Below are positions 15,386-31,625 of a DNA stretch of 39,549 bases, piece after piece. This DNA is from a virus: IMG/VR virus record IMGVR_UViG_3300036859_000133, positions 1 through 39,549 of that record. One strand, 5' to 3'. How positions within the stretch are numbered: position 1 is the first letter of the stretch; each line of letters opens with the position of its first letter. Below the pieces are notes generated by a model. It was not told where the DNA came from. It made no database searches and saw nothing but the letters and a program-made list of their open reading frames with translations. Position numbers and translations under genes: made by a program.

Positions 15386-16204
15386 ATGAACGGCTACGGC
15401 GCACTCGTGCAGACCGCCTCGTTCGGTCGAGGCAACGACTCCATGATGGCCCACGTCACGCCGGGCGAAGTCATGCTGCCGCCCGAGCTGCTCGCCCAAG
15501 AGCCTGGCCTCATGCAGGCGCTGGCCACGGTGTTCGCCAAGCACGGCCGGAACCCGGCGGAGTTCACCGTCGGCGCTACCGAAGGCACAAATCCCGTCAC
15601 CGGCCTCCCCGAATACGGTTGGTTCGACAAGGTCATCAAGAGCATCAAGAATTCGATCGTCCCGACCGTGGCCTCTGTTGTCGGCGGTGCCGCCGGCAAT
15701 TACCTCGGCATCGGCTCGGCGATCGGCTCCGGCATCGGCGCTGGCCTCGGCAGCTATGCCACTGGCAACGACGCCATCTCGGCGGCGCTCACCGGCGTCG
15801 GCTCGTGGGCCGGCGCGGAATACCTCGGCCCCGAGCTTGGCCTCTCCGGCGACTTCCTGGGTGCCTCCGCGGGATCGCAAGCCGGCGGCGCGCTTGGCGC
15901 GTTCGGCGCGGGCGTTCTGAGCAACATGGCCTTCGCCCCCGAGGAGACGGACATGGCCGGCCTGGAGGTGCCGCAGTATCAGCTGCCGAACACCCCGCTG
16001 CCCAATCCGATCAACACACAGAACCCTGGCCAGCAACAGCAGACCCCCGGTCCGGTCGTGGGCAACGGCGGCTCGACCATGCAGCCGATCACCTACCTCA
16101 CGCAGGTCAAGAACCGCGACACCGGCGAGATGGAATACGTCAACATTTCGCCGTTCGGCTCCAGCCTCGTGAACTCGAACAACTGGAACGTCAACTATGT
16201 TTGA
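15386..16204 (+). CDS. Membrane-active ejection-type virion protein
   Basis: 272 residues. The N-terminus holds SFGRGNDSMMAHVTPGEVMLPP, a motif found in several phage virion proteins. A long Gly/Ala/Ser/Ile-rich hydrophobic stretch covers residues ~90-175 (SVVGGAAGNYLGIGSAIGSGIGAGLGSYA and later repeats), resembling membrane-inserting segments of ejection proteins. The C-terminal third is Pro/Gln-rich and ends ITYLTQVKNRDTGEMEYVNI. A related NRDTG stretch occurs near the C-terminus of the 16795 product. It probably leaves the head with the DNA and contributes to an envelope channel. It starts one base after the previous stop. Confidence 0.55.
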   Translation: MNGYGALVQTASFGRGNDSMMAHVTPGEVMLPPELLAQEPGLMQALATVFAKHGRNPAEFTVGATEGTNPVTGLPEYGWFDKVIKSIKNSIVPTVASVVGGAAGNYLGIGSAIGSGIGAGLGSYATGNDAISAALTGVGSWAGAEYLGPELGLSGDFLGASAGSQAGGALGAFGAGVLSNMAFAPEETDMAGLEVPQYQLPNTPLPNPINTQNPGQQQQTPGPVVGNGGSTMQPITYLTQVKNRDTGEMEYVNISPFGSSLVNSNNWNVNYV

Positions 16205-16379
16205 TCGGAAGCTGGCGAGCGTCACGACCGGCAGCGTGGTCATCCACCCGATGGTCATGACGGGCGAGCTGCGCCAGCACCTCGAACAGTTCTTCGCCCG
16301 AGCTGGCCTCACCATCGACGCCTTCACGGTCGGCAATGACGCCAACCAGAAGGACGCCGACGGGAAGCTCCTGTTCTAG
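16197..16379 (+). CDS. Small hypothetical protein
   Basis: 60 residues, ATG at 16197 overlapping the previous stop by 8 bases. The sequence is a short mixed beta/helix protein (LASVTTGSVVIHPMVMTGELRQHLEQFFARAGLTIDAF) with an acidic Asn/Asp tail. No signal peptide or motif is seen. Its stop overlaps the 3' end of the minus-strand lipoprotein gene by four bases, so it is the last gene of this plus-strand block. Function unknown. Confidence 0.55.
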   Translation: MFDRKLASVTTGSVVIHPMVMTGELRQHLEQFFARAGLTIDAFTVGNDANQKDADGKLLF

Positions 16380-16717
16380 TTCGGCACGGCGGCCATGCCA
16401 CACTGCGCGGCGAGCGCAGGCACGTCTCCGTAGCCCTTATTCATGATCGCCTCGTATTCCGCTTCGCCGATGGGCGACAAACCCTTGGCCATGCGGTCGA
16501 GCTTCACCTGCTCGGTCTGGCTCAGCCGGTCATACCCGGCGGCCATCATGCAGGCGTGCTGCTCGTCCGAAACGCTCGCGGGATGTGGCACGTTCTTCCG
16601 GGCATATTCCCGGAAGCCCAGATACTGACCGCGCTCCGGCATTGCCGACACGCGCTCCCCACCCGACGCACATCCGGCCACCAGAATAAGCGTGGCCACA
16701 AGTACCCCAATTCGCAT
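16376..16717 (-). CDS. Signal-peptide lipoprotein, minus-strand moron candidate
   Basis: 113 residues. The N-terminus is a type II signal peptide: positive start (MR), hydrophobic core and lipobox LVAGC with the lipidated Cys at residue 16. The mature protein is small and helical, with two further cysteines (HACMMAAGY..., AAQCGM). AAAGGAGG lies seven bases before the ATG, a strong ribosome binding site. It is the only minus-strand gene inside the structural block and uses less C-ending codons than its neighbours (GGG, GTA, CTT, ATT). Both signs suggest later acquisition. Phage lipoproteins of this size often change the host surface or block superinfection, but that role is inferred. The family is not recognised. 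Confidence 0.7.
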   Translation of the reverse strand: MRIGVLVATLILVAGCASGGERVSAMPERGQYLGFREYARKNVPHPASVSDEQHACMMAAGYDRLSQTEQVKLDRMAKGLSPIGEAEYEAIMNKGYGDVPALAAQCGMAAVPN

Positions 16718-16727
16718 TCAGCCCTCC

Positions 16728-16745
16728 TTTGGGACGACAGGTCCC
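16728..16745 (+). promoter_or_regulatory. TTTGGGACGACAGG motif with hairpin (copy 4)
   Basis: TTTGGGACGAC lies in the divergent gap between the lipoprotein gene and the 16795 gene. GGGAC (16731-16735) pairs perfectly with GTCCC (16741-16745) around five bases. The T-run side overlaps the Shine-Dalgarno of the lipoprotein gene on the other strand. Function inferred from recurrence. Confidence 0.4.
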
Positions 16746-16756
16746 TGGCCACTTCA

Positions 16757-16781
16757 TAATTTCGCCGGTGAGCTGAAATTA
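16757..16781. promoter_or_regulatory. AT-rich inverted repeat between divergent genes
   Basis: TAATTTC (16757-16763) and GAAATTA (16775-16781) form a perfect 7-bp inverted repeat around 11 bases. It is an AT-rich island in a GC-rich gap between oppositely directed genes, so an operator or overlapping promoter is plausible. I cannot identify clear -35/-10 boxes. Confidence 0.35.
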
Positions 16782-16794
16782 CAAGAGGTGGGCA

Positions 16795-17952
16795 ATGCCT
16801 TCCTATGGTGGCGCGCACGGCCCTGACGGGAGCAAGAAAAGCGGGGATCAAGGGCAGGGTTCCCGCGACAGCGACGGCGGCCAGACCGGCGGTGGAAACG
16901 GTGGCAAAGTCGGCGGAACGGGCGGCTTCGGCAATACCGCGACGACTGGCAACCGCTATCCCGGCTACCGTGGCCCAACCGGCACCCGCAACGCGGCTTC
17001 CCATCCCGAGAAGCCGACCGGCATGCGCGACACCCTCGGTGGCCAGAACTACCGCGGTGGCCGCACGTCGCCGTCCGTCTCGCGCGCCACGCAGCAGCTG
17101 ACCAATGACTATATCGACCGCACCTATCAGGGCGCGACGCCGGAGAAATACGGTCAGGCAATGCGCGACTTTGGCGAGCGCATGGCCGACTACAACGGCG
17201 AGGAGGAGGACTTCATCGACTGGATCGGCAATCAGCTCGCCGACCTGTTCGGCTTCGAGGAGTCGATGCCCTCGTTCGACATCAACAACACGAACACGTT
17301 GGCCGACTGGGGCTGGGACCCGGTCGAGACGGCGCTCGCCGTCGGCGGAATGTTCAATCCCGCGCTCAAGACGGCCAGCTCCATCTACGGCGGCTACGAG
17401 TTCCTCGGCGGCCCGCGCCCGAGCATCAACATGGGCACGAGCGTGATCGGCCAGGACCAGTCCTACAACTCCGCCCCTGCGGCCAGCTTCGGCGGCACGG
17501 CCATCGGCAACATCAGCGGCGGCTTCGGCGGCGCCGTGCGTGGCGGGCCTTCCGCCAAGCAAGGCGGCAACGGCGGCAGCGGCGAGAAGACGGGCGGCAG
17601 TGGCATTTTCGGCGGCACGCCCACCCCTGGCCGCGCGCCATCTTTCCCGACCCCGGCCCCTGCGGCACCCAAGCCCCCGGCGACTCCGGCGCTGAGCACC
17701 GGCCCACTTCCGCCGGGCGTGTCCTTGGTCAACTACAGCACGCCGATCTACAACCGCGACACCGGCGGCGTCATCAGCGTGCCGGGCTCCGGCAGCGGCT
17801 TCACGAGCGGCTATGGCCAGGTCATCCAAGCCCCCTTTGGCGCGGTCCCGCGTCCGCCCGGAAGCATCCACCCCCCGATTAAGGACGACTTCGGCGGCGT
17901 GAAGAACGGCAACGTCCTGCGCCCGACTGGCTACGGAGCACTGGCAATCTAA
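16795..17952 (+). CDS. Gly/Pro-rich internal virion protein
   Basis: 385 residues. The N-terminal ~80 residues are Gly/Ser/Asp/Lys low-complexity. A folded helical core follows (SVSRATQQLTNDYIDRTY, then GQAMRDFGERMADYNGEEEDFIDWIGNQLADLFGFEE). The C-terminal half is Gly/Pro/Ala-rich with a hydrophobic patch (ALAVGGMFNPALKTASSIYGGYEFLGG). A YNRDTG stretch near the end recalls the 15386 product. Its position at the head of the block 16795-31174 suggests an internal head protein that is ejected. The start has a GAGGTGGG Shine-Dalgarno, and the stop overlaps the next ATG (TAATG). No enzyme motif is seen. Confidence 0.55.
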   Translation: MPSYGGAHGPDGSKKSGDQGQGSRDSDGGQTGGGNGGKVGGTGGFGNTATTGNRYPGYRGPTGTRNAASHPEKPTGMRDTLGGQNYRGGRTSPSVSRATQQLTNDYIDRTYQGATPEKYGQAMRDFGERMADYNGEEEDFIDWIGNQLADLFGFEESMPSFDINNTNTLADWGWDPVETALAVGGMFNPALKTASSIYGGYEFLGGPRPSINMGTSVIGQDQSYNSAPAASFGGTAIGNISGGFGGAVRGGPSAKQGGNGGSGEKTGGSGIFGGTPTPGRAPSFPTPAPAAPKPPATPALSTGPLPPGVSLVNYSTPIYNRDTGGVISVPGSGSGFTSGYGQVIQAPFGAVPRPPGSIHPPIKDDFGGVKNGNVLRPTGYGALAI

Positions 17953-18761
17953 TGGCTGATCCATTCACCACTGGCTTTAGCGCCCTCTCGCTCATCTCCT
18001 CCTGGCTCGACCAGCAGGATGCGGCGGCCGCTGCCGGCGATGCGAATGCGCTCTCGCAGCAGGCGCTCAATGCCCAGCTCAAGATGGCGCTCCAGCAGAT
18101 GGGCGCGGACAACGCCCTGCGCGACCGCGTCATCCAGCAGACCGGCGCTTACCAGACTTCCGTGTCCAACGCGCTCAACGCGATGGGACCCTACGGCTCG
18201 ACGCTGTGGGACGAGAAGGCCCTGGCCAGCGAGTTCGGCACCCGCTACGCCAGCTATCGCGACGCAGCCGACGACGCCATCACCGAGCTGTTCGGCACCC
18301 AGCAGGCCGACATGATGCGGATGGGCATGGACGCCTCGACGCTGGACATCGACATGCGCGCCGCGCTCGCCGACAAGGCCGCGGAGCTGCACAGCGAAGC
18401 CTACACCAAGGCCAAGGACGACGCGCTCGGCTACGTGACGAACCTGAACACCGCGCGCTGGGCTGGCCTCGACCAAATGAACAAGATGCGGATTGGCGCG
18501 GTCAACGAGAACCAGGCGCTCTACGAGCCGGCCATGAAGTATCTGGCCTCGATGATCACGGGCGGCGGCAACACGATGCTGTCGAACGCCTCCTACACCT
18601 CGTCCAATCTCTACAACCAGCTGAACCAGCAGGCCGTGAACGCATCGGCCGGCTTTGGCCAGGAACTGGACGACTTCTTCTCCGAATACGGCCCGTCGAT
18701 CAGCGATTGGCTGAAGGGAAGCAAGTCCAAGAGCACGACTGAAATCAGGATGGGCATTTAA
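17952..18761 (+). CDS. Alpha-helical internal virion protein
   Basis: 269 residues, starting and ending in TAATG overlaps with its neighbours, so it is coupled to both. The protein is long-helical and Ala/Gln-rich (ALSQQALNAQLKMALQQMGADNALRDRVIQQ), with regular amphipathic helices (KAKDDALGYVTNLNTARWAGLDQMNKMRIGAVNENQALY) and a polar Ser/Asn-rich C-terminal segment before a basic tail. The layout and order (small, medium, giant) parallel T7 gp14-gp15-gp16 internal core proteins. By that analogy it would form part of the ejected trans-envelope channel. No membrane helix or catalytic motif is evident; the name is contextual. Confidence 0.6.
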   Translation: MADPFTTGFSALSLISSWLDQQDAAAAAGDANALSQQALNAQLKMALQQMGADNALRDRVIQQTGAYQTSVSNALNAMGPYGSTLWDEKALASEFGTRYASYRDAADDAITELFGTQQADMMRMGMDASTLDIDMRAALADKAAELHSEAYTKAKDDALGYVTNLNTARWAGLDQMNKMRIGAVNENQALYEPAMKYLASMITGGGNTMLSNASYTSSNLYNQLNQQAVNASAGFGQELDDFFSEYGPSISDWLKGSKSKSTTEIRMGI

Positions 18762-20848
18762 TGGCCGGCTTGTTTGGCGGATATACGTGGGCGGTCCAGC
18801 AGGGCCTCAACGAGGCGCGCGATCATCGCTTTGCGATGCGCGACAAGAAGCTCTCTGCCATGAAGGACTTCCTGGCGGAGGCGACTGCCAATGGCCAGCA
18901 GCTCAGCCCGAAGGAGTATCTCGACCAGGTCGAGCAGATGTCCGACGGATCGCACTGGCTCCGTGGCCAGCTCGACCCGGGCACGATCATGCCCAAGCTC
19001 ATCCAGCGCCAGAACGAGCGCGCGAAGGCCGTCGTCGCCCAGGAGAACCTCACTGCTCTGCAACAGCAGGACGCGGCGCGCAGCATCTTCGAGCGCGACC
19101 TCGGCCAGCTGTCGATGGCGCTCGACGATCCCCTGAAGATCAAGGAGTCGATGGCCGCCAAGTATGGCCAGAACCCGATCTTCTCCGACTACCTCAAGGG
19201 CCTCGACGACAACACGATCGGCCGCGCCCGCGCGACCACGTCCGCGTCCGAGCTGCAAAGCCTCATGCCGCTCATCTCCAGCATGACCGAGCAGGGCGCG
19301 AAGGACTACTTCGCCAACTACAACACGCCCAAGTCCGTGCAGGCCGCCGCGCTGTCCTGGATCAGGGAGCGTGACACCAAAATCCAGGAGGAGCGTGGCT
19401 GGCAGCAGCACATGACCGAGCTGAACCACAAGCTCCAGAAAGACGCCTACAAGTTCCAGGACCAGCTCGCCGACGAGAACCTGGTGGCCGCGCAGTCCGT
19501 GCAGGCCGTCAAGGACGCCACCTCCGCCATGGCCAACGATCCCAACCTGGCGGCTGCCGTGGCCAACTACCGCACCGGCAAGCTCGATGACCGCCGCGCC
19601 GCTCGCTCGGCGCTCAGCCAGTTCACGATGGGCACCTCCTGGGCCAACGACCTCGACGGGTTCGTCGCGCAGCTCGGACAGCAGCCGCAGATCGCTGTGG
19701 CCACGCACGAGCAGAGCCAGCTCGACGAGATCGCCAAGGCCGCCCTGTCCGACCCGACCATCCAGGCCGCGGTCGCTCGCGACAGCACGCCCGCCAGCAT
19801 CCTCAAGAACCTCCAGCCGCTGTTCGCGCAGCAGCCCTACTTCACCAACAATCCGGCCGCCCAGAAGCGCGCGGCCGAGATGGTGGCCGGCACGATCGAG
19901 GAGGCGAACTTCGCTGCGGCCGAGCACGCCTACGAGAAGCTCGTGTCCGAGGCTGGCCCCGCCGCTGTGGAGAAGGCCAAGAAGGACCTCGAAACCTACG
20001 ACGCGCAGTGGGAGCCAGCGATCGGCACGCTCACCGAACCCGATGCGCAGATGGCCGCGCAGGCGTTCTCGCTCCAGTTCTACGCGGACCCCAATGCCCG
20101 CCAGGCCGCCATCACCATCCTGGACGATGAAGGTGCCATGCCCGCGCCCGAGCTGGCGCAGCGCCTCGCCCAGGAAGGCTTCCAGATCATCGACCGCAAC
20201 TCCTACGCCACGCAGCTGGCCAGCCAATACGCGGCCGCGTCCGTCGGCTTCACCCCGACCACGCACGAGAGCCTCGTGGACGCCGCGCGCCAGACCCTCG
20301 AAAGCACCAAGGACATCGACGGCCTCCTGCGCCAGTCGCCCGGCGCGACCCGCCAGGACGTGATCGCCTCCCTGGAGCAGGCCACGGTGCAGATGCAGAA
20401 CATGCTCGTGGCCGCGACCAAGACGCCCGCGTCCGTGCGCGGCTACAAGGAGGGCGAGGTCCACTCGCTCATCAACGAGTATCAGGCCCGCATCGCCACG
20501 CTCCGCTCCGAGGCGGCCAAGGTCGAACCGAAGCCGGTCGAGCAAGGCCCGCCCTCGATGCAGCAGCTCCTGGACAACATGAAGACCACGGCGCAGCAGC
20601 CGAAGCCGGTCGAGCAGACCGGCCGGCAGCGCATCGACATCATCACCTCGACGGCCAAGGAGATCGCTGCCCAGGTCCCGAACGACCCGACCTTCGGCAA
20701 CCGCAAGCGCCTAACCGCCACGCAGGTCGAAGCCCTGGCTGACGCCATGATCCGCGAGAAGGGGATCAAGAACATGACCCGTGGCCAGGTGGCGGGCATT
20801 CTCGCCGGCCGCCTCCGTTACAACGGCATCATCGTCTCCGGCCGATAG
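18761..20848 (+). CDS. Large alpha-helical internal virion protein (T7 gp15-like role)
   Basis: 695 residues, almost entirely helical with Ala, Gln, Glu and Lys. Long coiled helices dominate (e.g. QRQNERAKAVVAQENLTALQQQDAARSIFERDLGQL; ERGWQQHMTELNHKLQKDAYKFQDQLADENL). The C-terminal ~60 residues are basic with a helix-turn (ATQVEALADAMIREKGIKNMTRGQVAGILAGRLRYNGI). There is no membrane helix and no lysozyme motif. It lies directly before the giant protein and probably forms the middle layer of the ejectosome. Its stop codon TAG is embedded in the CGATAGGGACGA motif (20843-20854). Confidence 0.65.
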   Translation: MAGLFGGYTWAVQQGLNEARDHRFAMRDKKLSAMKDFLAEATANGQQLSPKEYLDQVEQMSDGSHWLRGQLDPGTIMPKLIQRQNERAKAVVAQENLTALQQQDAARSIFERDLGQLSMALDDPLKIKESMAAKYGQNPIFSDYLKGLDDNTIGRARATTSASELQSLMPLISSMTEQGAKDYFANYNTPKSVQAAALSWIRERDTKIQEERGWQQHMTELNHKLQKDAYKFQDQLADENLVAAQSVQAVKDATSAMANDPNLAAAVANYRTGKLDDRRAARSALSQFTMGTSWANDLDGFVAQLGQQPQIAVATHEQSQLDEIAKAALSDPTIQAAVARDSTPASILKNLQPLFAQQPYFTNNPAAQKRAAEMVAGTIEEANFAAAEHAYEKLVSEAGPAAVEKAKKDLETYDAQWEPAIGTLTEPDAQMAAQAFSLQFYADPNARQAAITILDDEGAMPAPELAQRLAQEGFQIIDRNSYATQLASQYAAASVGFTPTTHESLVDAARQTLESTKDIDGLLRQSPGATRQDVIASLEQATVQMQNMLVAATKTPASVRGYKEGEVHSLINEYQARIATLRSEAAKVEPKPVEQGPPSMQQLLDNMKTTAQQPKPVEQTGRQRIDIITSTAKEIAAQVPNDPTFGNRKRLTATQVEALADAMIREKGIKNMTRGQVAGILAGRLRYNGIIVSGR

Positions 20849-20854
20849 GGACGA
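20843..20854 (+). promoter_or_regulatory. CGATAGGGACGA motif (copy 5), before the giant gene
   Basis: Identical over 12 bases to the copy before the capsid gene (10138-10149). It contains the stop codon of the 18761 gene. Unlike the other four copies it does not open a clear hairpin. A start or processing point for the mRNA of the giant protein is inferred. Confidence 0.45.
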
Positions 20855-20876
20855 TCAACTTCAAACGCTCGGGTAT

Positions 20877-20909
20877 CTCCGTGGGCAGTGGACGCCCATT
20901 CCCACGGAG
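20877..20909 (+). promoter_or_regulatory. Hairpin that buries the ribosome binding site of the giant gene
   Basis: CTCCGTGGG (20877-20885) pairs perfectly with CCCACGGAG (20901-20909), a 9-bp GC-rich stem with a 15-base loop. The Shine-Dalgarno GGAG (20906-20909), five bases before the ATG at 20915, is the outer end of the 3' strand. It would be hidden until the hairpin opens. This suggests translational control of the 3419-residue protein. Confidence 0.65.
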
Positions 20910-20914
20910 AACTC

Positions 20915-23900
20915 ATGGCTACGCCGATCAAGCCGATCACCACCCAGGACATCCTGGCCAACATCAATTCGACGGTTCAGTCCCGTCAGACCGGCTTCCC
21001 CGACTACCTCAACGACGTTTCAGGCGAGACGCTCAAGAACGCCGGCTTCCTGGCGGACGTGCGCAAAGCCTATCAAGCCCGTGACGGCATCGATTTCGGC
21101 ACCGACCAGGACGCCATCTCGCACTTCCTGAGTGATCGGCGCTGGTCCAACATCAACACCCTCGGCATCGCGGGCGACTGGCTCAGCGATATGCCGGACG
21201 ATCAGAAGGAACTGTTCGCGCGCCTCCAGTCCGTCTACGACGAGCTGCCGTGGTTCGTGGACGAGAGTGGCCAGCGCAGCCTGAAGGGCTTCGGCCAGGC
21301 GCTCCTCTACGGCGTGGCCGACCCCACCAACCTCATCGGCGTCGGCGAGGCGGTCAAGGCCGCGCAGGTCGCGGCTATCGCCGGCAAGCCACTGCTCAAA
21401 GCCGCCGGCACCGGCCTGGCCAAGGGTTCGGCCGCTGAGTTCGGCCTCCAGGGCACGATCGGCTTCGGCCAGGACTACGGCACCCAGCAGCGCAACATCG
21501 AGTTCGGCCTCCAGGACGAATACAGCATGGCGCAGGGCGCGGCCTCCGCGCTGCTGTCGGGCGCGGCGGGCGCTGGCATCGTCGCTGGCACCGCGGTCCT
21601 TGGCGACGTGATCGGCAAGGGCGTCCTCTCCGGCGCTCGCCAGGGCGCAGCGATCCGCAGCCAACTCCAGTCCCTGAACTACTCGGACGCCGAGATCGCG
21701 GCTATGCCGCTCAAGGACGTTCCGGCCATCATCGCCGAGCGCCGCGTCTCTCCGTCTTTCATAGAGCGCCAGGCCGCCGCAGAGGCCGAGAAGGCCGCGG
21801 CTGGCCAGAAGGCTACCTCCGAGGCCGTCAACGCCGTAGCGCCCAACCAAGCGACGCAGAAGACCGGCCCCGAGATCATCACCGACGCCATCGCCCTGCG
21901 CCGGCAGCGCCTCGCCGCGCTGTCCCGTGAGGCGGTCGAGGGCGACCCCTCCAATGCGGCCGGCGTCCAGTCTGAAATCAACGACGTGCAGCGCGAGCTG
22001 GAAGCTCTGCTGGAAGCCAAGAACCATGACCGCGTGCTTGCTGGCCTCAACGCCCGCAAGGACGAGGCGGAGCTGGCCGGCAAGTTCAACGAGGCCGCAC
22101 AGATCGAGGTGCAGATCAGCGCGCTCGAAGCGCGCCGCAACTCCATCACCAAGCCGGACCTGACCGAGCGCGAGGTCGAGGACTACCTGAAGTCCCTGGC
22201 TCCTCTGGCCACGGACCCTGCAGGGACCCAACCTGGTAGCCCGGCGACCCCCCAAGAGAGTCAACCCACTGATAACGCAGAGGCCACGGCGGTCTCCGAC
22301 GGTAGTGGTGGATCTCCCGAAGGATCTGAACAGGCGCCCGCTCAGCCTGGCGAGGCTGCCGCCCCGACCCCAGAAAGCTCCTACCCGATCTACACCAACG
22401 ACGAAGCCGTGGCCCAGCTCGTGGGCGAAGGCTACTCGGAGGCGGAAGCCCGCACGCTCGTGCGCGATGCCGGCAAGTCCGGCGCGGAGGACAAGAAGAA
22501 GGCCATCTCCGACACGGTCGAGGGCAATCGCGGCTACGGCCAGGCGATGGGTCAGTTCGCCGACCTGGTCGAGACACTCGGCCCCGACATCGCCAACGAC
22601 GACATCTTCAACGCGATCATGGCCGCCGACCCGGCGCTCACCAAGTTCGCCGACAAGATCAACAGCGTGCGCGACCAGTATAAGGCCGCGCTCTCGATGG
22701 CCGCTCAGCCGATCGAGCAGAACATGGACGAGAAGGTCCTGGGCAAGAAGCTGATGGAGGCGATCGGCGACAGCGATGTCGTGCGCCGTCTCGTCAACGG
22801 CTTCCGCGCGAGCGTGCAGAAGCGCAACCCGGACATCACGCCCACCCACCTGGACTTCCTGACGAAGAACTTCATCGACACGATCACCGCCGCGCCCGCC
22901 GAGCGCAAGCCGCGCGACCCGATGGCGAGCCGCCTGGGCAAGGGCGACATCGACGTGGCCATGGGCGGCAAGCCCCAGTCGGGCATGTCCAAGAGCGCGC
23001 CGGGCACCGAGCACCTGGAGAAGGCCGGCGGCGAGTTCGTCGGCCGTCCGCCGAGCCGTGGCCAGTTCACCAAGCTCACCCTCGAAGCCGAGGTCGAGAA
23101 GCTCGCCAACCAGGCGATGTTCGCCGAGGCGGACGCCGGCAAGAAGGCCGTCAGCACGAAGAAGCGTGACCCGCGCTCGATCGCTCCCATCTACATCACC
23201 TGGAACGGCAAGCGTGAGATGACCGCCGACGGCGTGGCCTTCACGCACGGCGACAGCGTCTGGTATGACCCCGCCACCCGCCGCTTCTGGTATGACATCA
23301 ACAAGGCCAACTGGACCGGCCGCGAGGCGGCCAAGGCCGAGGTGGCTTCGTTCGGCAAGCGCCCGGACATCGTGCCCGTGGAGCGCGCCAATCGCCCGGC
23401 CGACGCCAAGTCCGTCGTGCCCGACGGCGCGAAGCTCGCGACCGCGCAGGGCTGGTCGAAGAACGACCCGAACAAAGCCTACGAGTTCATCGTCGAAGAC
23501 GAGTTCGGCACCGAGGACGGCAAGGCCGTCAAGATCGGTCCGAAGGCCGCGAACGGCAACATCCTGCCGGCGGGCCGCAGCGCCTACGTCTACCAGGGCC
23601 AAGTCTACGGCTCCGCGACCGACCTGCCCTTCCTGAAGGAAGAAGCTGCGCCGGCTGCCACCGCCGCGCCGACGCAGCCCGTCAAGGCATCCGCCAAGGC
23701 CGCCGACATGGCCGCGGCGTTCGTCCGCTACAAGGATCACCAGAGCAAGGCCAAGCTGGCCGCCGATCTGGAGATGATCCGCAAGAAGCATGAGGGCGCT
23801 GCCGCGTCCGCTCCTGCGCCGACCACTCCGACCGAAGCGCCGGCCGAAGCCAAGCCCGCACCGCAGGGCTACGTCGCCGCCGTGATCCCGGTGGGCGAGC

Positions 23901-26900
23901 TGGTCCCCGATCGTCCGATCGCCGGCATCCGTGTCCAGGGCCGCAACCAGGCCGCTGGCCCCGACATCCATGACCGCCTCATCGGCAAGTCCGACCCGAA
24001 CACCTTCCGCAAGGTGTGGGTGCCGGACGGCAAGGCGAAGACCGATCTGCGCCCGACCGATCTGCTCGACCTTGACGGCAAGAAGCTGCCGGAAGCGTCA
24101 AGTGACGCCGTGGCCACGCCGACGGAGACTCCGCCGGCGGACACTCCGACGGTTCGTCCGCTGAACCGGCTCGATGCCGCCACGCAGAACTTCGAGGTCC
24201 CGGAGGTTGCCGCGTGGGTGTTCAGGACACTGCCCCGTCCGCCCACTGTGGTGGAAGGCCACGCCGCCCTGGCTCTGCTCCACATCGCCCCGACGAAACG
24301 GTCCGCCGCCGGCCAGCTTGTCGAGCACGCGATCGCCAGCGCACCCGTGCGCCAGCGCCTCGCGGCTGCGGCTGCGCTTGAGCGCGTCCTGCCCCCGGTC
24401 GAGCGCCCGCGCGTGGAGAAGGCCGCGGCAATTGCCAAGGTCCGCGAGACGTTTGCCAATGCGCCCTACGAGCAGGTCGTGGCCATTCGCGACATGCTGC
24501 GCCGGATCGACAGCGCCTCGTTGCCACCGATCAGCACCGGCACCACTCCCTACGGCATCGGCGGGACCTACACCGCCTTCGACGTGGACCCGGCCGGCAA
24601 GATGTTCGTGGCCGACGACGTCGTGGTCGGCAACACCACCTTCAATCAGCCCTCCGGTGTGCTGGCGCACGAGCTGGCGCACTGGGCCTACCACAACCTC
24701 CTGACCGGCGAGCAGCGCAGCGAGTTCCTGGCCTGGGTCCTGAAGGACATGGACGGCAATGGCCAGCTGCGTGGCGAGCTGGCCTCGATCAGCCCTGCCT
24801 ATGCAGCCATTGATGTCGGCGACAAGCAGCTGCGGCCATACACCGACATCCGCCCGAACGAAATCTTCGCCGATGCCTTCCAGCATTGGGTGTCGCAGAC
24901 CGGCAAGAGCCGCGTCGTCGGCCCCGAGACGCTGTGGAAGCAGGTCGTGCGCTACGTGCGCGCGCTCGTCGAGAAGTATCTGGACCCGAACACGCAGTTC
25001 CCGGCCGAGATCGAGACGCTGTTCGAGCGCATCCTGCCGCCCGAAGCGAAGGCGCAGCAGTTCGTCACCCCGAAGACTGAAGCCGGAGCCAAAATCCATG
25101 CTCTCCTCACTGGCGTCGATGATCAGCGCGTTCGTCTTGAGAACGGTATCAACAGCTACGATCCAGCCACAATCGGCCCTGCTATTCAGCAGGCTCTCCG
25201 CTTCATCCAGCAGCTACCCAGTTCGGGCTATTCGGCGCTCGTCAACGAAGAAATCCAGGCGACGGTCGAAGGCTTCGCCAAGGTAGCCAACCAAGTCTGG
25301 CAGCGCGCGGCCAAGACGCCGTCGCTTGCGCGAGAGCGCGCCATCTTCGAGATCACGGACATCGCGAACGACGTGGTCGATGCCATCGCCGAGTTCCAGA
25401 CCAAGCTCAACGAACGCTACCAGTCCGTCGAGAAGGGCCAGGCTCGCCTCGCCAGCAACGACCCGCTGAACGCCCGCACGCCGAAGACCAAGAAGGGTCA
25501 GGTGATCGCGCCGTTCATGGCCCGCATGCGCGACTACCGGGACAGCATCCAGCAGCGCCTCGCCGCGTCCGCGCGCGCCGTGGAGATGCCGGACAATATG
25601 GAGTTCGCCCGCGAGATCGCCGACTACCTCGAAAAGGATTTCGGCCAGCTCAAGATGGTGGGCCACCTGCATGGTGGCGCGCGCCGCACTGAGCGCCGTG
25701 GCCAGGAGATCAAGCTGCGCGACGCCGGCAAGCCCTACGATGCCCGGATCGCGTCGCTGCCGGAGCGCGGCTCCGAAGACCTGGCCAAGCAGCTGTGGGA
25801 CATGACGGGCGGCCGCCCGGCGACCGCAGACGTGGCCAACGAAATCCGCGTGGATTGGACTGCCGATCTGGAGAACCAGGTCCTCGATGTCCTCGACCAG
25901 GCCAACGAGCTGTTCAACCTGGCGGAGACGAGCCTGCTCTCCAACTTCCGTTCCGCCGAAGGCTTCGACCTCGACACCGGCGTGCTCGCCAAGCGCGACC
26001 ACCGCGTGACGAAGGCAAAGCGTGGCCAAATCCTGGCCAAGCTCCGTCGCTCGATCTTGGCGGAGGTGTCCGCCTACCCGCACAGCGTGGCGCGCGTCGA
26101 GAAGTTCCGCCACCTGGGCAAGATGATCAAGGAGGCGATCGCGGTCGCCGGTGAGAACCGCGACCGCAAGATGCTCGACCGCCTGGGCAAGCTCCAGGAC
26201 AAGCTCACCTCCGTCCTCACCACCGATCGCAAGGGCGTCACGCCCGGCACGGACAGCGCGCACCTGTCGATCAACAGCATCGTGCAGAAGTCCGAGATCA
26301 GCGTCGTGCTCGATGCGGCGCGTGCCGGCGAGAACACGCTGCCCGAGCGCGCTGCCGCCTTCGAGCTGGCACGCCGTGGCCGCGCCCTGCCGCACCCGCA
26401 CACCCACACCGACGTGCGCCCCGAGTTCCAGGCGCTGTCGGACGACGGCATCACCGACGAGCTGAACCGCGCTCTGGACGCCAATGACCAGGCCGCGGTG
26501 AACGAACTGCGCGAGGAAGCCTGGCGTCGAGACACCATGGCCACGCAGGCCGGCCGCCCCGTGCTCTACCCGCGCGACAAGGCCACCAAGCAGGCGATCG
26601 GCCGCGAGGTGGATGCCTGGACCGGCGTGCCCGATGACGACGGCGTTCCGCCGAATGCGCCGCAGTGGGTAAAGGACATCGTCCGCAAGGTCCGCCACAA
26701 GAACCAGCAGCTGCAATACTCGCAGCGCCTCCTGACCTATCGCGCGCTCAATCTCCTCCCGAAGGAGGTCAAGAACGCCATGGCCGACGTGGCCATCCTG
26801 TCGATCGACGAGGCCGATCGCCTCGCCGGCGGCGGCCGCGTCCGACCGGAAGCGCGTGGCGTCTTCGTCACCCAGAGCCCTGAATGGGACGGCCTGAAGC

Positions 26901-29900
26901 GCGCCGTGTCCGGGGTGGCCATCGGCCTCACCGAGGGCACCTCGACCCCGCTCGACGCCGTGCACGAAGTCATGCACTTCGCGCTCCGCACCCGCGTCTT
27001 CTCGGCCGACGACCAGAACCTCATCATCGAAGCCTTCCGTGCCGCGCGCCGCAATGGCGACGTGCTGGCCGCGCTCACCGAGCGCATCGAGGGTGCGGAC
27101 AATGAGCTGAAGCTGGCCGAGGAATGGTTTGTTGAGCGCACCGCTCAGCACGTCATCGGCAAGATCGCCAAGGGCGACATCTTCCAGGCTCGCCTGGGCG
27201 GCGTCGATGCCGAGGCGCAGCTGATCCTCCGCAACCGCCTGGGCACCCTGATCGGCCGCTTCATCGACACCGTGGCCTACCTGGTGAATGGCCTGATCGG
27301 CCGCAACGACGTGCGCCAGCTGATGCGCCGGATGACTATGTATGGCGATGTGCTGGGTGGCCGCGTGCGCGCGTCCGCCGAGACGGACATCGTGGACATC
27401 TTCGCCCACCTGCCGCCCGACCTCCAGGAGCACTTCATCCGCGAGGCCGCGCCGGCCACGCGCAAGAAGCTCATGAAGAAGTTCGCGTCGGGTATCGGCG
27501 TGGACGAGAAGGGCGAGATCGTCTTCTGGTATCACGGTTCTCCGGCGGGCAAGTTCCTCAACAAGGAAGCCAACCCGATCCCGGTCGCAAGCGGCTGGGG
27601 CCGCCGCGGCTCCGGGTTCTATATGACTCGCAACAAGAACGTGGCCTTCGAGACGTATGCCCAGAGCTACACCGTCGAGGCCGCGAAGAAGCTGGCCGAA
27701 CGCTCCGGCCGCAAGAGCAAGGCCGACCTCATCACGATCGAGGAGCTGGCCACGGACCGCATCGAGGTCCTGAACCTCCTGCGCAAGGCCGCCGACGAGC
27801 AGTCCCGCCTGAAGACCGAGCTGCTGAACAGCAACTCCATGCTGGGCGAGGCCGGCGAGATCGATGCCGAGGTGAAGGGCAACCGCGTCGCCGATCTGGA
27901 GCGCACCAAGAAGGCTTGGGCGCGTCGCCTCAAGGAGATCGACGCCGAGCTGGGCCTCTACGGAGCGCGCCCGCAGCCGGTCATGCTGACCCTCGTGGCC
28001 CGCACCGGCGACCGCGAAGACGCGATGTTCAATGCCAAGCCCGATCACATGCTGGACACCGCGAGCGAGCAGGTGCTCCGCACCCGTGACGCTCTGGACA
28101 TGGCGGAGTTCGGGTTCGACGACGACCTGATGGCCAAGTTCGACGAGAGGGTCATGGCCGGCCAGCTGTCCGGCGAGGACCTGTGGCAGAACGTCCACGA
28201 CCTGTTCTACCACCAGATGGCGCGCAACGACGGCGCGTTCGTTGAGGACCTCCAGGCTGTCTCCAAGGAGGCCATGGCGGCCACCACGGAGCTGCTCAAG
28301 CTCGCCGGCTACGAGGGCGTGATCGACACGCACATCAACCGCCTCGATGACGGCGCGACCGTCCACCACGAGACGGCGATCATCTTCGAGCCGGAGGGCC
28401 GCATCAAGGACGTGACCGCCGACTACTTCGACCAGGAGCAGCCGGAGCTGTATCACAGCTCGCCCGCGGTGAACGTGTTCGGCGACATGAAGCCGCTCGG
28501 CGAGCTGGCGACCGCCATCGCTCGCACGGACGGCCCGCTCACCGTGGCCAACACCGGCCCGATGCTGTCCGCCTTCAGCGCGGCCGGCGTCTCCAAGCCG
28601 ATCACCAGCGCGCTCGCCAAGCTCATGAACAAGCGCACGCCCGGCCCGCTGGAGCGTGAGGCGTTGGCCCGCGCCGGCTTCCACAACTACCTCCAGAGCA
28701 ACGCTCAGCGCCTGCGCTCGGTGTCCAACGCGAAGACCGTGGCCGACTGGCTCCAGCCGAAGAACGGCGTAGGCCACTTCGACCGCCTCCTCCGCCGCGT
28801 CGCCGACGATGTGGTGCCCGTCGTGTCCATGCTGGACAAGCTGCCGGGTGCCGCCGGCTTCAAGGGCTGGCTCCGCCACAACAAGTTCTGGGGTGAGGTC
28901 GCCCAGCCGGAGAGCTTCACCCGCATCGCCAAGGCACTCCGCCGTGGCCAGGGCACGAAGTACTGGACGGACCTGGCTCCCGAGGAGCTGGCCATCGCCA
29001 ACGCCATCCGCAACAAGTTCATCGACAAGCTCGGTGAGCTGCGGAACTCCGGCATCGTGATGGGCGAGGTCAAGAACTACTTCCCGCAGATTTGGGACGT
29101 GGAGAAGATCAAGGCCAACAGCGACCGCTTCACCAAGCTCCTGGCTGACTACCTGGAGCGCGAGAGCGACATCGACATCACCCGCAACCGGATCACCCGC
29201 GAAGAGGCCACGATCCGCGCGCAGCGCATCATCGCCTCCCTGATCAATGACGAGGGTGTCTACCTGCCCTCGCACGCCGGCACCCGCGCACCGACCGCCG
29301 ACCATGTGGACTATCAGCGCATGATCCGCCTGCACGATCCGGCGTTCGCTGCCCAGCTGTCCGCCTTCGAGAACGGTGGCTTCATCGTCAATGACCTCAA
29401 GGGCATCATCGCCAAGTATTTTGACACCGCGAACCGCCGCCTCGACTTCATGGAGCGTTGGGGCGAAGGCAACCACGCCTACTACGACTATCAGGCCGTG
29501 GCCGCCTATGGCATCGACGCGGTGAAGCAGCTGCTCACCACCCGCAAGATCATGAAGGTCCGCCGCGACTATGTGTCGGACAACGGCGTGGAGCAGAACG
29601 CCTTCAACATCACCACCATCCAGCCGCTCGACTTCAACATCATCGGCGGCGTGGCCAAGCAGCTGTTCGACCTCACGCAGAAGGGCGACAAGAACGCCGC
29701 CATGAACCTGCTGCTGGCCGTGCAGCCCTACGACAGCCCGGCCTACCGCAAGCGCGCGCAGGCCGTTGTGGACGCCCTGGTGGACTTCAAGGAAGCGATC
29801 GGCCGCGACCCGGCTGGCCGCGCTCCCGGCATGAATGCCAACGAGATCGCGTTCATGGAGAACTTCTTCCGCGTATCGCAGCGCAAGCGCGTCGAGCTGG

Positions 29901-31174
29901 GCTACGGCGGCGAGACGATGGCCAAGGTCAGCAAGGGCGTCCGCAACTTCAACAGCGTGTCGCTGCTCACCGCCACGACCCTCGCCTCGATCCCCGATCT
30001 GGGCATGTCGCTGCTCCGCACCGGCAACATGAAGGCGTGGATGACCGGCCTCTCGAAGTTCGCCGTGGACAAGGAATACCGCTCTGCCTTCCGTGGCATC
30101 GGCGTGGGCGTGGAGAACATCATCCACCAGAACATGGCCAACCTCTACGGCGGTGGCGGCAGCCGCGCGTCGAACGCCTTCTTCAACCTGATCGGCCTGA
30201 CTCCGTGGACCGAGATGCAGGGCGAAGTGGCCAGCGCCGTCGGCTGGGAAGCCTTCAAGGCTGAACAGCGCCGTGCGCTCGCCAACCTGCCGGCACCGGG
30301 CAAGTCCAACCGCGCCTACCGCGTGGCCATGCGCTTCCTCGATCGCTACGGACTGGCCGAATACGCCCGGCCTGGCGCTCAGTCCCTGGAGACGCTGGAC
30401 ATCAACAGCCCCGAGGCGGCGGCGGTTCGTGACGCGCTGCACAAGTTCCGCAACGAAACCATCTTCGCTCCGAACCCGAGCGACATCCCGCTCTGGGCTC
30501 AGACCCCGTGGGGCAGCGTCGTCTTCCAGCTGAAGCAGTATCCGCTGATGTTCAGCCGACTGGGCGGCTACGTGGCCACGGAGGCCGCCAACGGCAACTA
30601 CGGCCCGGCGCTCGCCATGTTCACGATGGGCACCGGCCTCGGCGCTGCGTCGCTCGCCACTCGCGACCTGATCCAGGGCCGCGGCGGCGACAACCGCGAC
30701 AAGGAGCACGCGCTGCGGGAGCGCACGCTGACGAAGTGGCTGGAGCAGTTCGGCTACAAGGGCGACATCCACGGCCCGGCCGACGAGTTCCTCGGTTGGT
30801 ATATCGAGGGCTTCATGGCTATGGGCGGCCTCGGCCTCCTCGGCGACATCATCTATAACACCGCCGCGCAGGCCGATAACGGCGCGTTCGGTGCGCAGCG
30901 GATGGCCAGCGTGGTCTTCGGCCCGACCGTCGGCCTCGGCTTCGACGCCTACAACGTCGTCGTCCAGGGCGGCACCGCCGCGCTCGGCAACGTCACCGGC
31001 CTGGGTGGCCCCTCCAACTACAAGGAGCGGGACGCGATGAGGACGATCACTTCTCGCATCCCTGTTATCGGTGGCTTCCACACGGTCCGAGAGGCCGCAG
31101 CGGACACCCTGGCGGGTGAACGCTACTCCGACACCAAGAGCGGTGGCTGGGGCAGCGGCTCCGGCTGGAACTAA
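20915..31174 (+). CDS. Giant polyvalent internal virion protein: two HExxH motifs and ADP-ribosyltransferase-like domain
   Basis: 3419 residues from the ATG at 20915 (GGAGA upstream); the GTG at 20888 lies inside the hairpin loop. N-terminus: ejection-type segment with hydrophobic stretch at ~206-235. Coiled coil ~370-410; Pro/Gly linker ~430-490; beta-rich part ~750-910. Motif HELAHW at 1252-1257 with likely third ligand E1316 (NEIFADAF): zinc metallopeptidase-like. Long helical region. Second HEVMH at 2017-2021, likely with E2070 or E2074. ADP-ribosyltransferase-like part from YHGSP (2206) through GSGFYMT (2232-2238) to GYEGV (2465) and FEPEGRIK (2491-2498). Helical C-terminus with Gly-rich hydrophobic segments near 3228-3250 and 3301-3320. 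This follows the 'polyvalent protein' design: enzymes delivered with phage DNA. It is probably the outermost ejection protein. Activities are predicted, not shown. Confidence 0.8.
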   Translation: MATPIKPITTQDILANINSTVQSRQTGFPDYLNDVSGETLKNAGFLADVRKAYQARDGIDFGTDQDAISHFLSDRRWSNINTLGIAGDWLSDMPDDQKELFARLQSVYDELPWFVDESGQRSLKGFGQALLYGVADPTNLIGVGEAVKAAQVAAIAGKPLLKAAGTGLAKGSAAEFGLQGTIGFGQDYGTQQRNIEFGLQDEYSMAQGAASALLSGAAGAGIVAGTAVLGDVIGKGVLSGARQGAAIRSQLQSLNYSDAEIAAMPLKDVPAIIAERRVSPSFIERQAAAEAEKAAAGQKATSEAVNAVAPNQATQKTGPEIITDAIALRRQRLAALSREAVEGDPSNAAGVQSEINDVQRELEALLEAKNHDRVLAGLNARKDEAELAGKFNEAAQIEVQISALEARRNSITKPDLTEREVEDYLKSLAPLATDPAGTQPGSPATPQESQPTDNAEATAVSDGSGGSPEGSEQAPAQPGEAAAPTPESSYPIYTNDEAVAQLVGEGYSEAEARTLVRDAGKSGAEDKKKAISDTVEGNRGYGQAMGQFADLVETLGPDIANDDIFNAIMAADPALTKFADKINSVRDQYKAALSMAAQPIEQNMDEKVLGKKLMEAIGDSDVVRRLVNGFRASVQKRNPDITPTHLDFLTKNFIDTITAAPAERKPRDPMASRLGKGDIDVAMGGKPQSGMSKSAPGTEHLEKAGGEFVGRPPSRGQFTKLTLEAEVEKLANQAMFAEADAGKKAVSTKKRDPRSIAPIYITWNGKREMTADGVAFTHGDSVWYDPATRRFWYDINKANWTGREAAKAEVASFGKRPDIVPVERANRPADAKSVVPDGAKLATAQGWSKNDPNKAYEFIVEDEFGTEDGKAVKIGPKAANGNILPAGRSAYVYQGQVYGSATDLPFLKEEAAPAATAAPTQPVKASAKAADMAAAFVRYKDHQSKAKLAADLEMIRKKHEGAAASAPAPTTPTEAPAEAKPAPQGYVAAVIPVGELVPDRPIAGIRVQGRNQAAGPDIHDRLIGKSDPNTFRKVWVPDGKAKTDLRPTDLLDLDGKKLPEASSDAVATPTETPPADTPTVRPLNRLDAATQNFEVPEVAAWVFRTLPRPPTVVEGHAALALLHIAPTKRSAAGQLVEHAIASAPVRQRLAAAAALERVLPPVERPRVEKAAAIAKVRETFANAPYEQVVAIRDMLRRIDSASLPPISTGTTPYGIGGTYTAFDVDPAGKMFVADDVVVGNTTFNQPSGVLAHELAHWAYHNLLTGEQRSEFLAWVLKDMDGNGQLRGELASISPAYAAIDVGDKQLRPYTDIRPNEIFADAFQHWVSQTGKSRVVGPETLWKQVVRYVRALVEKYLDPNTQFPAEIETLFERILPPEAKAQQFVTPKTEAGAKIHALLTGVDDQRVRLENGINSYDPATIGPAIQQALRFIQQLPSSGYSALVNEEIQATVEGFAKVANQVWQRAAKTPSLARERAIFEITDIANDVVDAIAEFQTKLNERYQSVEKGQARLASNDPLNARTPKTKKGQVIAPFMARMRDYRDSIQQRLAASARAVEMPDNMEFAREIADYLEKDFGQLKMVGHLHGGARRTERRGQEIKLRDAGKPYDARIASLPERGSEDLAKQLWDMTGGRPATADVANEIRVDWTADLENQVLDVLDQANELFNLAETSLLSNFRSAEGFDLDTGVLAKRDHRVTKAKRGQILAKLRRSILAEVSAYPHSVARVEKFRHLGKMIKEAIAVAGENRDRKMLDRLGKLQDKLTSVLTTDRKGVTPGTDSAHLSINSIVQKSEISVVLDAARAGENTLPERAAAFELARRGRALPHPHTHTDVRPEFQALSDDGITDELNRALDANDQAAVNELREEAWRRDTMATQAGRPVLYPRDKATKQAIGREVDAWTGVPDDDGVPPNAPQWVKDIVRKVRHKNQQLQYSQRLLTYRALNLLPKEVKNAMADVAILSIDEADRLAGGGRVRPEARGVFVTQSPEWDGLKRAVSGVAIGLTEGTSTPLDAVHEVMHFALRTRVFSADDQNLIIEAFRAARRNGDVLAALTERIEGADNELKLAEEWFVERTAQHVIGKIAKGDIFQARLGGVDAEAQLILRNRLGTLIGRFIDTVAYLVNGLIGRNDVRQLMRRMTMYGDVLGGRVRASAETDIVDIFAHLPPDLQEHFIREAAPATRKKLMKKFASGIGVDEKGEIVFWYHGSPAGKFLNKEANPIPVASGWGRRGSGFYMTRNKNVAFETYAQSYTVEAAKKLAERSGRKSKADLITIEELATDRIEVLNLLRKAADEQSRLKTELLNSNSMLGEAGEIDAEVKGNRVADLERTKKAWARRLKEIDAELGLYGARPQPVMLTLVARTGDREDAMFNAKPDHMLDTASEQVLRTRDALDMAEFGFDDDLMAKFDERVMAGQLSGEDLWQNVHDLFYHQMARNDGAFVEDLQAVSKEAMAATTELLKLAGYEGVIDTHINRLDDGATVHHETAIIFEPEGRIKDVTADYFDQEQPELYHSSPAVNVFGDMKPLGELATAIARTDGPLTVANTGPMLSAFSAAGVSKPITSALAKLMNKRTPGPLEREALARAGFHNYLQSNAQRLRSVSNAKTVADWLQPKNGVGHFDRLLRRVADDVVPVVSMLDKLPGAAGFKGWLRHNKFWGEVAQPESFTRIAKALRRGQGTKYWTDLAPEELAIANAIRNKFIDKLGELRNSGIVMGEVKNYFPQIWDVEKIKANSDRFTKLLADYLERESDIDITRNRITREEATIRAQRIIASLINDEGVYLPSHAGTRAPTADHVDYQRMIRLHDPAFAAQLSAFENGGFIVNDLKGIIAKYFDTANRRLDFMERWGEGNHAYYDYQAVAAYGIDAVKQLLTTRKIMKVRRDYVSDNGVEQNAFNITTIQPLDFNIIGGVAKQLFDLTQKGDKNAAMNLLLAVQPYDSPAYRKRAQAVVDALVDFKEAIGRDPAGRAPGMNANEIAFMENFFRVSQRKRVELGYGGETMAKVSKGVRNFNSVSLLTATTLASIPDLGMSLLRTGNMKAWMTGLSKFAVDKEYRSAFRGIGVGVENIIHQNMANLYGGGGSRASNAFFNLIGLTPWTEMQGEVASAVGWEAFKAEQRRALANLPAPGKSNRAYRVAMRFLDRYGLAEYARPGAQSLETLDINSPEAAAVRDALHKFRNETIFAPNPSDIPLWAQTPWGSVVFQLKQYPLMFSRLGGYVATEAANGNYGPALAMFTMGTGLGAASLATRDLIQGRGGDNRDKEHALRERTLTKWLEQFGYKGDIHGPADEFLGWYIEGFMAMGGLGLLGDIIYNTAAQADNGAFGAQRMASVVFGPTVGLGFDAYNVVVQGGTAALGNVTGLGGPSNYKERDAMRTITSRIPVIGGFHTVREAAADTLAGERYSDTKSGGWGSGSGWN

Positions 31175-31197
31175 CCACAGTAGAAGGAAGAACACCC

Positions 31198-31416
31198 ATG
31201 GATGGCGTGAAGAACATCGTTACCAGCAAGACCTTCTGGGGCGCGCTCGCGGCGATTGCCGGCGGTGCGGCCAGCTTCTTCGGCTACAGCGTCGATGAAG
31301 CCACCAAGCAGGTCATCGTTGACCAGGGCATGATGATCGGTGGCGCTGGTGCCACCCTCGTCGGTGGCCTGCTCGCGATCTGGGGCCGCATCAAGGCCAA
31401 CAAGAAGATCGGCTAA
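31198..31416 (+). CDS. Holin candidate (two membrane helices)
   Basis: 72 residues, Shine-Dalgarno AGAAGGAAG upstream. Two hydrophobic segments are visible, at ~13-30 (TFWGALAAIAGGAASFFGY) and ~45-63 (MMIGGAGATLVGGLLAIWG), separated by a polar turn (SVDEATKQVIVDQG). The C-terminus is basic (RIKANKKIG). The arrangement with SKTFWGA and 'LAIWGRIKA' is seen in small phage holins of Proteobacteria. A holin forms timed holes in the inner membrane for the endolysin. It opens the lysis cassette, directly before a spanin-like gene with a TAATG overlap and upstream of the M15 endopeptidase. Confidence 0.75.
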   Translation: MDGVKNIVTSKTFWGALAAIAGGAASFFGYSVDEATKQVIVDQGMMIGGAGATLVGGLLAIWGRIKANKKIG

Positions 31417-31625
31417 TGGTCTACGCGATCGTCGGAGGCATCGCGCTCCTGGGTGGCTTCATCCTCTGGCTCTACTACACGGGCAAGAAGGCTGGGGCCA
31501 CCAAGGTGCAGAACGAGGTCCTCGTGGACACGAACGAGGTCAAGAGCAAGCAGCTCGACGCCATCGTGAACGGTCCGAAGTCGAAGTCTGACGTTATGGC
31601 CAGGCTCCGGGATAAGGGGCTGTGA
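31416..31625 (+). CDS. Small inner-membrane lysis protein (i-spanin-like)
   Basis: 69 residues. A single N-terminal membrane helix (residues ~3-20, AIVGGIALLGGFILWLYY) is followed by a charged helical periplasmic part (KVQNEVLVDTNEVKSKQLDAIV) and a basic end. This N-in topology and place before a lipoprotein gene resembles Rz-type i-spanins, though it is shorter than the usual 100-150 residues. It shares a TAATG junction with the holin and a GTGA junction with the tiny ORF after it. The spanin call is contextual. Confidence 0.55.
   Translation: MVYAIVGGIALLGGFILWLYYTGKKAGATKVQNEVLVDTNEVKSKQLDAIVNGPKSKSDVMARLRDKGL

Follow-up and report, generated by a model that had tools for sequence, protein, structure and literature searches.

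A giant cysteine-free protein of a CRP-810-type marine phage combines a T7 gp16-type C-terminal domain with zincin-like and ADP-ribosyltransferase-like domains

The window analyzed here is a 39,549-nucleotide stretch of viral DNA (IMG/VR record IMGVR_UViG_3300036859_000133), in which one gene on the plus strand, 20915-31174, reads through without a stop codon to give a protein of 3419 residues. The start at 20915 is supported by a GGAG sequence 5 bases ahead of the ATG and by a Met1 that is invariant in the alignment of relatives; an in-frame GTG lies upstream at 20888. An earlier note, made from the sequence alone, had described this reading frame with two HExxH sites and ADP-ribosyltransferase (ART)-like motifs, and all of them lie exactly where it placed them: HELAH at residue 1252, HEVMH at 2017, YHGSP at 2206, GSGFYMT at 2232 and FEPEGRIK at 2491. 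In shuffled versions of the protein, HExxH occurs 0.05 times on average and two copies were reached in 1 of 2000 shuffles; two such motifs in one such chain are not expected by chance. The hydrophobic ejection-type ends claimed in the same note are borne out in part: Ala/Gly-rich stretches lie near both ends, but only a single segment (residues 211-230) exceeds a simple hydropathy threshold. Searched at full length against Pfam, PHROG and NCBIfam, the protein gave no significant match. An antisense open frame of 1993 residues beneath the gene (25214-31195, minus strand) is most likely a by-product of the 65% G+C content. The features of the locus are collected in Table 1.

Table 1. Features of the giant gene and the reading frames just upstream of it
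Feature	Position	Strand	Remarks
Four ORFs without cysteine just upstream of the giant gene	15386..20848	+	Candidate virion or ejection partners, by position and composition
Giant ejection-type polyvalent protein (predicted)	20915..31174	+	3419 aa, zero cysteine
N-terminal domain, residues 1-260	20915..21694	+	Conserved and hydrophobic, with many Ala and Gly residues; aligned with the 'internal virion protein D' of CRP-810 (gp36)
Linker, approximately residues 261-1184	21695..24466	+	Poorly conserved; column conservation mostly 0.17-0.35
Zincin-like domain 1, residues 1185-1400	24467..25114	+	HELAH 1252-1256, partner E1316; order in the model: helix, strands, HExxH helix, Glu helix
Variable linker, residues 1401-1889	25115..26581	+	From conservation
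Zincin-like domain 2, approximately residues 1890-2186	26582..27471	+	HEVMH 2017-2021, partner E2069
ART-PolyVal-type domain (predicted), residues 2195-2505	27497..28429	+	H2207, Y2236, E2467
C-terminal domain, residues 2580-3419	28652..31171	+	Assigned to the T7 gp16 (internal virion protein D) family

Gene order and sequence identities of the window match those of the Roseobacter phage CRP-810, with, in order, 60% identity for the capsid protein, 46-58% for the capsid neighbors, 54% for the AAA ATPase, 48% for the nuclease and 38% for the primase-polymerase. Judged by these comparisons, the window is that of a CRP-810-type marine phage. A marine phage family founded by CRP-810 has been published and includes 251 uncultured relatives; in that study, the region goes by the name 'internal virion protein D' only, and neither peptidases nor polyvalent proteins are brought up (PMC11288001). 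Relatives of the giant protein number in the hundreds in IMG/VR, with up to 405 encoded in one alignment-based scan of viral contigs, and 63 distinct chains were used for detailed comparison; one scan for relatives was biased toward chains with an intact second HExxH site. Almost every complete relative is a single chain of approximately 2.9-4.0 thousand residues, and the motifs are kept in homologues at approximately 20-40% identity. The sole relative found on bacterial genome contigs lies on a 4.5-kb contig from a Rhodobacteraceae bin (FZLS01000164.1), which is probably phage DNA.

The CRP-810 version shares both HExxH sites, the ART motifs, the C-domain and the gene order with the window, but differs in being encoded by three separate ORFs, gp36/gp35/gp34 (OR671924), which bear no annotation beyond 'internal virion protein D' and hypothetical protein. 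The chain is cut near the end of the N-domain and between ART and C-domain; the breaks (23473-23534 and 17463-17540 of the CRP-810 record) are due to a frame-shifting tandem duplication of 31 bases at the second of these junctions and to a separate frameshift. The split may be either real or a matter of assembly. The three-gene layout can be ruled out as the ancestral state, given that nearly all complete relatives are single-chain. Another relative (L060:2706-12529) occupies three overlapping ORFs, two of which contain cysteines, suggesting frameshift errors or recent mutation.

Each HExxH motif of the giant protein is paired with a downstream glutamate, E1316 for HELAH and E2069 for HEVMH. 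At site 1, the equivalent of E1316 is present in all 55 chains that carry the HExxH motif and in none of the 8 that lack it. At site 2, which is missing in about half of the relatives, the glutamate accompanies the motif in 27 of 30 chains and occurs in 2 of the 27 scored chains without it. None of the 57 scored chains lacks both sites, nor does any of the 6 with a gapped second site. On the tree, site 1 was lost once and site 2 at least four times. Because these independent losses are few, shared ancestry inflates the co-loss statistics and the raw P values are unreliable; given so few losses (one at site 1, about four at site 2), the absence of a double loss is likewise not statistically significant. 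Still, joint loss of HExxH and glutamate is the direction predicted by two working zinc sites, and both look real by this comparison. One clade of eight relatives (L087, L089, L093, L094, L096, L097, L104, L109) has lost zincin 1 and kept zincin 2 and the ART; many other clades show the reverse.

Structure models place both HExxH motifs in confidently modeled helices, and each partner glutamate lies on another helix. An HExxH motif plus a downstream glutamate on the second helix, as in a zincin-like metallopeptidase (MPTase), is thus predicted at both sites. For the two zinc-peptidase motifs proposed earlier, the comparison thus supplies third ligands, which disappear together with HExxH, and the models do not place either motif in an exposed or unstructured position lacking such a ligand. 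In the model of domain 1, short strands precede HExxH in the order expected for a zincin; in that of domain 2, clear beta strands are absent. A fold search of the models against the PDB matched no solved structure, and PDB sequence profiles likewise gave no credible match. The profiles of the two domains resemble each other (P 6.5e-5). Among relatives of domain 1, one matched DUF6782 (1.3e-5), one weakly matched Peptidase_M91 'effector protein', and the match to MPTase-PolyVal was weak; the window protein itself matched no curated peptidase family. Of the large-polyvalent-associated (LPD) domains, LPD39 was matched by one member only, and weakly (E 0.085); the viral proteins nearest in fold carry LPD names.

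Downstream of the second zincin-like domain, H2207 on strand 1, Y2236 on strand 2 and E2467 before strand 5 form an ART residue set; the position of E2467 is occupied by D in most relatives, and the active-site scheme described for ART-PolyVal in PMC5512222 is His, Tyr, Asp. The Pfam model ART-PolyVal (PF18760) matches 26 of 38 relatives. Two of them exceed its cut-off of 31.2 bits (L018 with 35.8 and L059 with 31.5), and the window protein stays below it with 20.7 bits, a weak score that we attribute to a helical insert of approximately 95 residues (2254-2348) modeled between strands of the domain. By its H-Y-D/E residue set, the domain is of the ART-PolyVal kind, in agreement with the ADP-ribosyltransferase-like domain suggested before; an ART fold in region 2206-2498 is favored by the model, in which the strands form and the three residues sit on or near them. 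A second ART start at 'LYHSS' (residue 2512) was rejected, since relatives show a non-ART 'LYYR/LFxR' there. The ART histidine is lost in 10 of the 63 chains, every one of which keeps a peptidase site, and many chains keep the ART with only one site. Peptidases that persist next to an ART that no longer works cannot have the freeing of the ART as their only task, and the earlier idea of self-cleavage releasing the ART is therefore less well supported than the domains themselves.

The C-terminal ~840 residues are the most conserved part of the chain. The C-domains of 14 of 35 relatives matched PHROG 342, 'internal virion protein with endolysin domain' (best E 1.7e-20), and an alignment headed by the window protein matched an alignment of T7 gp16 homologues with 87% (P 3.6e-6) over residues 2664-2731 (28904-29107), compared with 0.6% for a control alignment of the zincin-ART region against the T7 gp16 profile. 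The strong similarity is limited to part of the C-domain, which by these profile comparisons belongs to the T7 gp16 ejection family and lends substance to the description of the chain as an ejection-type polyvalent protein. The N-domain was rejected as a gp16 homologue (0.2% in the profile comparison). In T7 gp16, the N-terminus holds a muralytic domain, and the C-terminal part has been placed in the cytoplasmic hub of the ejectosome that transfers the DNA (PMC8954989). No N-terminal transglycosylase appeared among the Pfam or NCBIfam matches of the 3419-residue chain; P22-like members also lack this domain, which is reported to be phage-specific (PMC8954989) and does not, given those members, define the gp16 family. 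Like T7 gp16 and PHROG 342 proteins, the window protein has the homologous C-terminal domain and an internal virion gene position and, like T7 gp16, no cysteine. It differs from T7 gp16 in being 2.6 times longer, in its zincin and ART domains, in the lack of a recognized transglycosylase and in an N-domain that is not detectably related; with gp16-like proteins listed at 609-1337 residues (PMC8954989), it would far exceed every one of them. In tblastn searches, the C-domain weakly matched 'particle proteins' of Vibrio, Aeromonas and Pelagibacter phages (OL774570 (H64), MN698243 (H13) and Vibrio 50-kb phages (H4-H19)), which are perhaps further gp16-like giants.

Approximately 20 cysteines would be expected in the giant chain from the window's other likely genes, and the 63 chains of the family together contain two in 196,376 residues. 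The known ejected sets of three unrelated model phages, T7 gp14-16, P22 gp7/20/16 and N4 gp50-52, contain one cysteine in 7,864 residues, compared with 0.9-1.3% in the other proteins of these phages (records L163 for T7, L164 for N4 and L165 for P22). Of the other proteins of at least 190 residues, 6 of 55 are cysteine-free, the longest having 405 residues. The absence of cysteine from the giant protein fits ejection, since the ejected proteins of T7, N4 and P22 share it almost completely; the synteny with CRP-810 is a further indirect sign. Unfolded passage, or an oxidizing periplasm, would explain it. In the window, the ORFs at 15386, 16795, 17952, 18761, 20915, 31198 and 31416 total 5,181 residues with zero cysteine; this block (15386-31625) likely encodes virion and ejection proteins, and by position and composition, the four ORFs upstream of the giant gene are candidate virion or ejection partners. 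We found no statement of a cysteine-avoidance rule for ejected proteins in the literature searched, and freedom from cysteine is possibly general among them across phages.

Based on these observations, we propose, with a probability of about two in three, that the giant protein serves a CRP-810-type phage as its main ejection protein and is an oversized relative of T7 gp16 that carries zincin and ART cargo ahead of its gp16-like part and acts on the host as follows. The gp16-family C-domain, the zinc-ligand sets, the ART residue set, conservation and the absence of cysteine are read from sequence, and packaging, ejection, topology, catalysis and targets are inferred. The chain would be packaged in the head and exit by way of the portal in what is probably a mostly unfolded state, a possible reason for its intolerance of cysteine. 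Its N-terminal domain and gp16-like C-domain would help DNA across the envelope, with the C-domain, by analogy, as the inner-membrane and cytoplasmic hub. Between them would travel zincin 1, the optional zincin 2 and the ART. Because an ART needs NAD+, the cargo should end up in the cytoplasm, which fits both the hydrophobic segment 211-230 on its N-terminal side and a cytoplasmic gp16-C. There, the ART may modify host proteins early in infection, and the zincins may cut the giant chain itself, host proteins or both.

What the zincins do is where other explanations enter. They could mainly be processing enzymes that sever the N-domain, the cargo and the gp16-like part from one another, either inside the head or once the chain has entered the cell, with either site being sufficient. 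We hold this possible, if tentatively: no chain lacks both sites, the encoding of the CRP-810 parts by three ORFs means that they can probably work unlinked, and for polyvalent proteins, domains of this kind have been suggested to cleave their own chain (PMC5512222). However, retention of at least one peptidase falls short of significance, the claim that one is always kept being further weakened by the scan biased to intact second sites, and the N4 polymerase is packaged uncut despite such a domain (PMC5512222). Direct action on host proteins upon entry, parallel to the ART, would agree with the peptidase site in all 10 chains without ART histidine and with the weak Peptidase_M91 'effector protein' match and the DUF6782 match in single domain-1 relatives, but such persistence is equally compatible with self-processing, and we consider such a host-directed role rather unlikely.

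That the domains are relics or structural modules in a chain serving solely as an ejection conduit is improbable. About half of the chains have a dead site 2 and some a dead ART, and no curated family was significant for the window protein itself, but most members, at 20-40% identity, retain the ligand sets in full, and where these are lost they go as sets, as for selected catalytic sites. We regard it as very improbable that the zincins act in the periplasm, clearing the path of the DNA and standing in for the T7 gp16 transglycosylase: zincins of the HExxH/Glu type are as a rule proteases, and the ART adjoining zincin 2 needs NAD+ and hence the cytoplasm. The muralytic domain of T7 gp16 (PMC8954989), for which the giant chain has no recognized counterpart, would be the point in its favor.

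Polyvalent proteins are described as giant chains, predicted to be injected, with one to five zincin-like peptidases and H-Y-D ARTs (Iyer et al. 2017, PMC5512222). The giant protein resembles them, with zincin-like peptidases and an ART in one chain, and fits their definition in that several unlike predicted enzymatic domains, the zincin-type sites and the ART, share a chain with a gp16 domain. For those proteins, a gp16-type ejection fusion is not described in the abstract and the sections consulted, and 'internal virion' and 'ejection' do not occur in the text. The ejected N4 virion RNA polymerase likewise has approximately 3,500 residues, no cysteine and one HExxH domain (PMC12633501), but Pfam detected no RNA polymerase domain in the window protein, and homology to the C-terminus of the N4 polymerase was rejected because hhalign could not align the C-terminal parts. 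An 'undescribed takeover system', as the earlier note put it, is too strong: injected multi-enzyme proteins that contain zincins and ARTs have been reported before (PMC5512222), and the phage family has been published, though without these domains (PMC11288001). The link to gp16-type ejection and the domain content in the CRP-810 family appear to be undescribed in the literature searched.

Our favored reading would mean that two separately described groups, the T7 gp16-type ejectosome proteins and the injected polyvalent effectors, meet in a single protein of a phage family that is abundant in the ocean and has a cultured member in CRP-810. A broader version, for which we see a little less than an even chance, is that this widespread marine family made the gp16-type protein that helps its genome through the inner membrane a vehicle for two interchangeable zinc proteases and an ART in one cysteine-free chain, and that exclusion of cysteine is a general signature of portal-ejected proteins. 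The absence of cysteine would make candidates for ejected proteins inexpensive to pick out by sequence, and since CRP-810 is in culture, it can be tested whether ejection proteins act on the host besides moving DNA.
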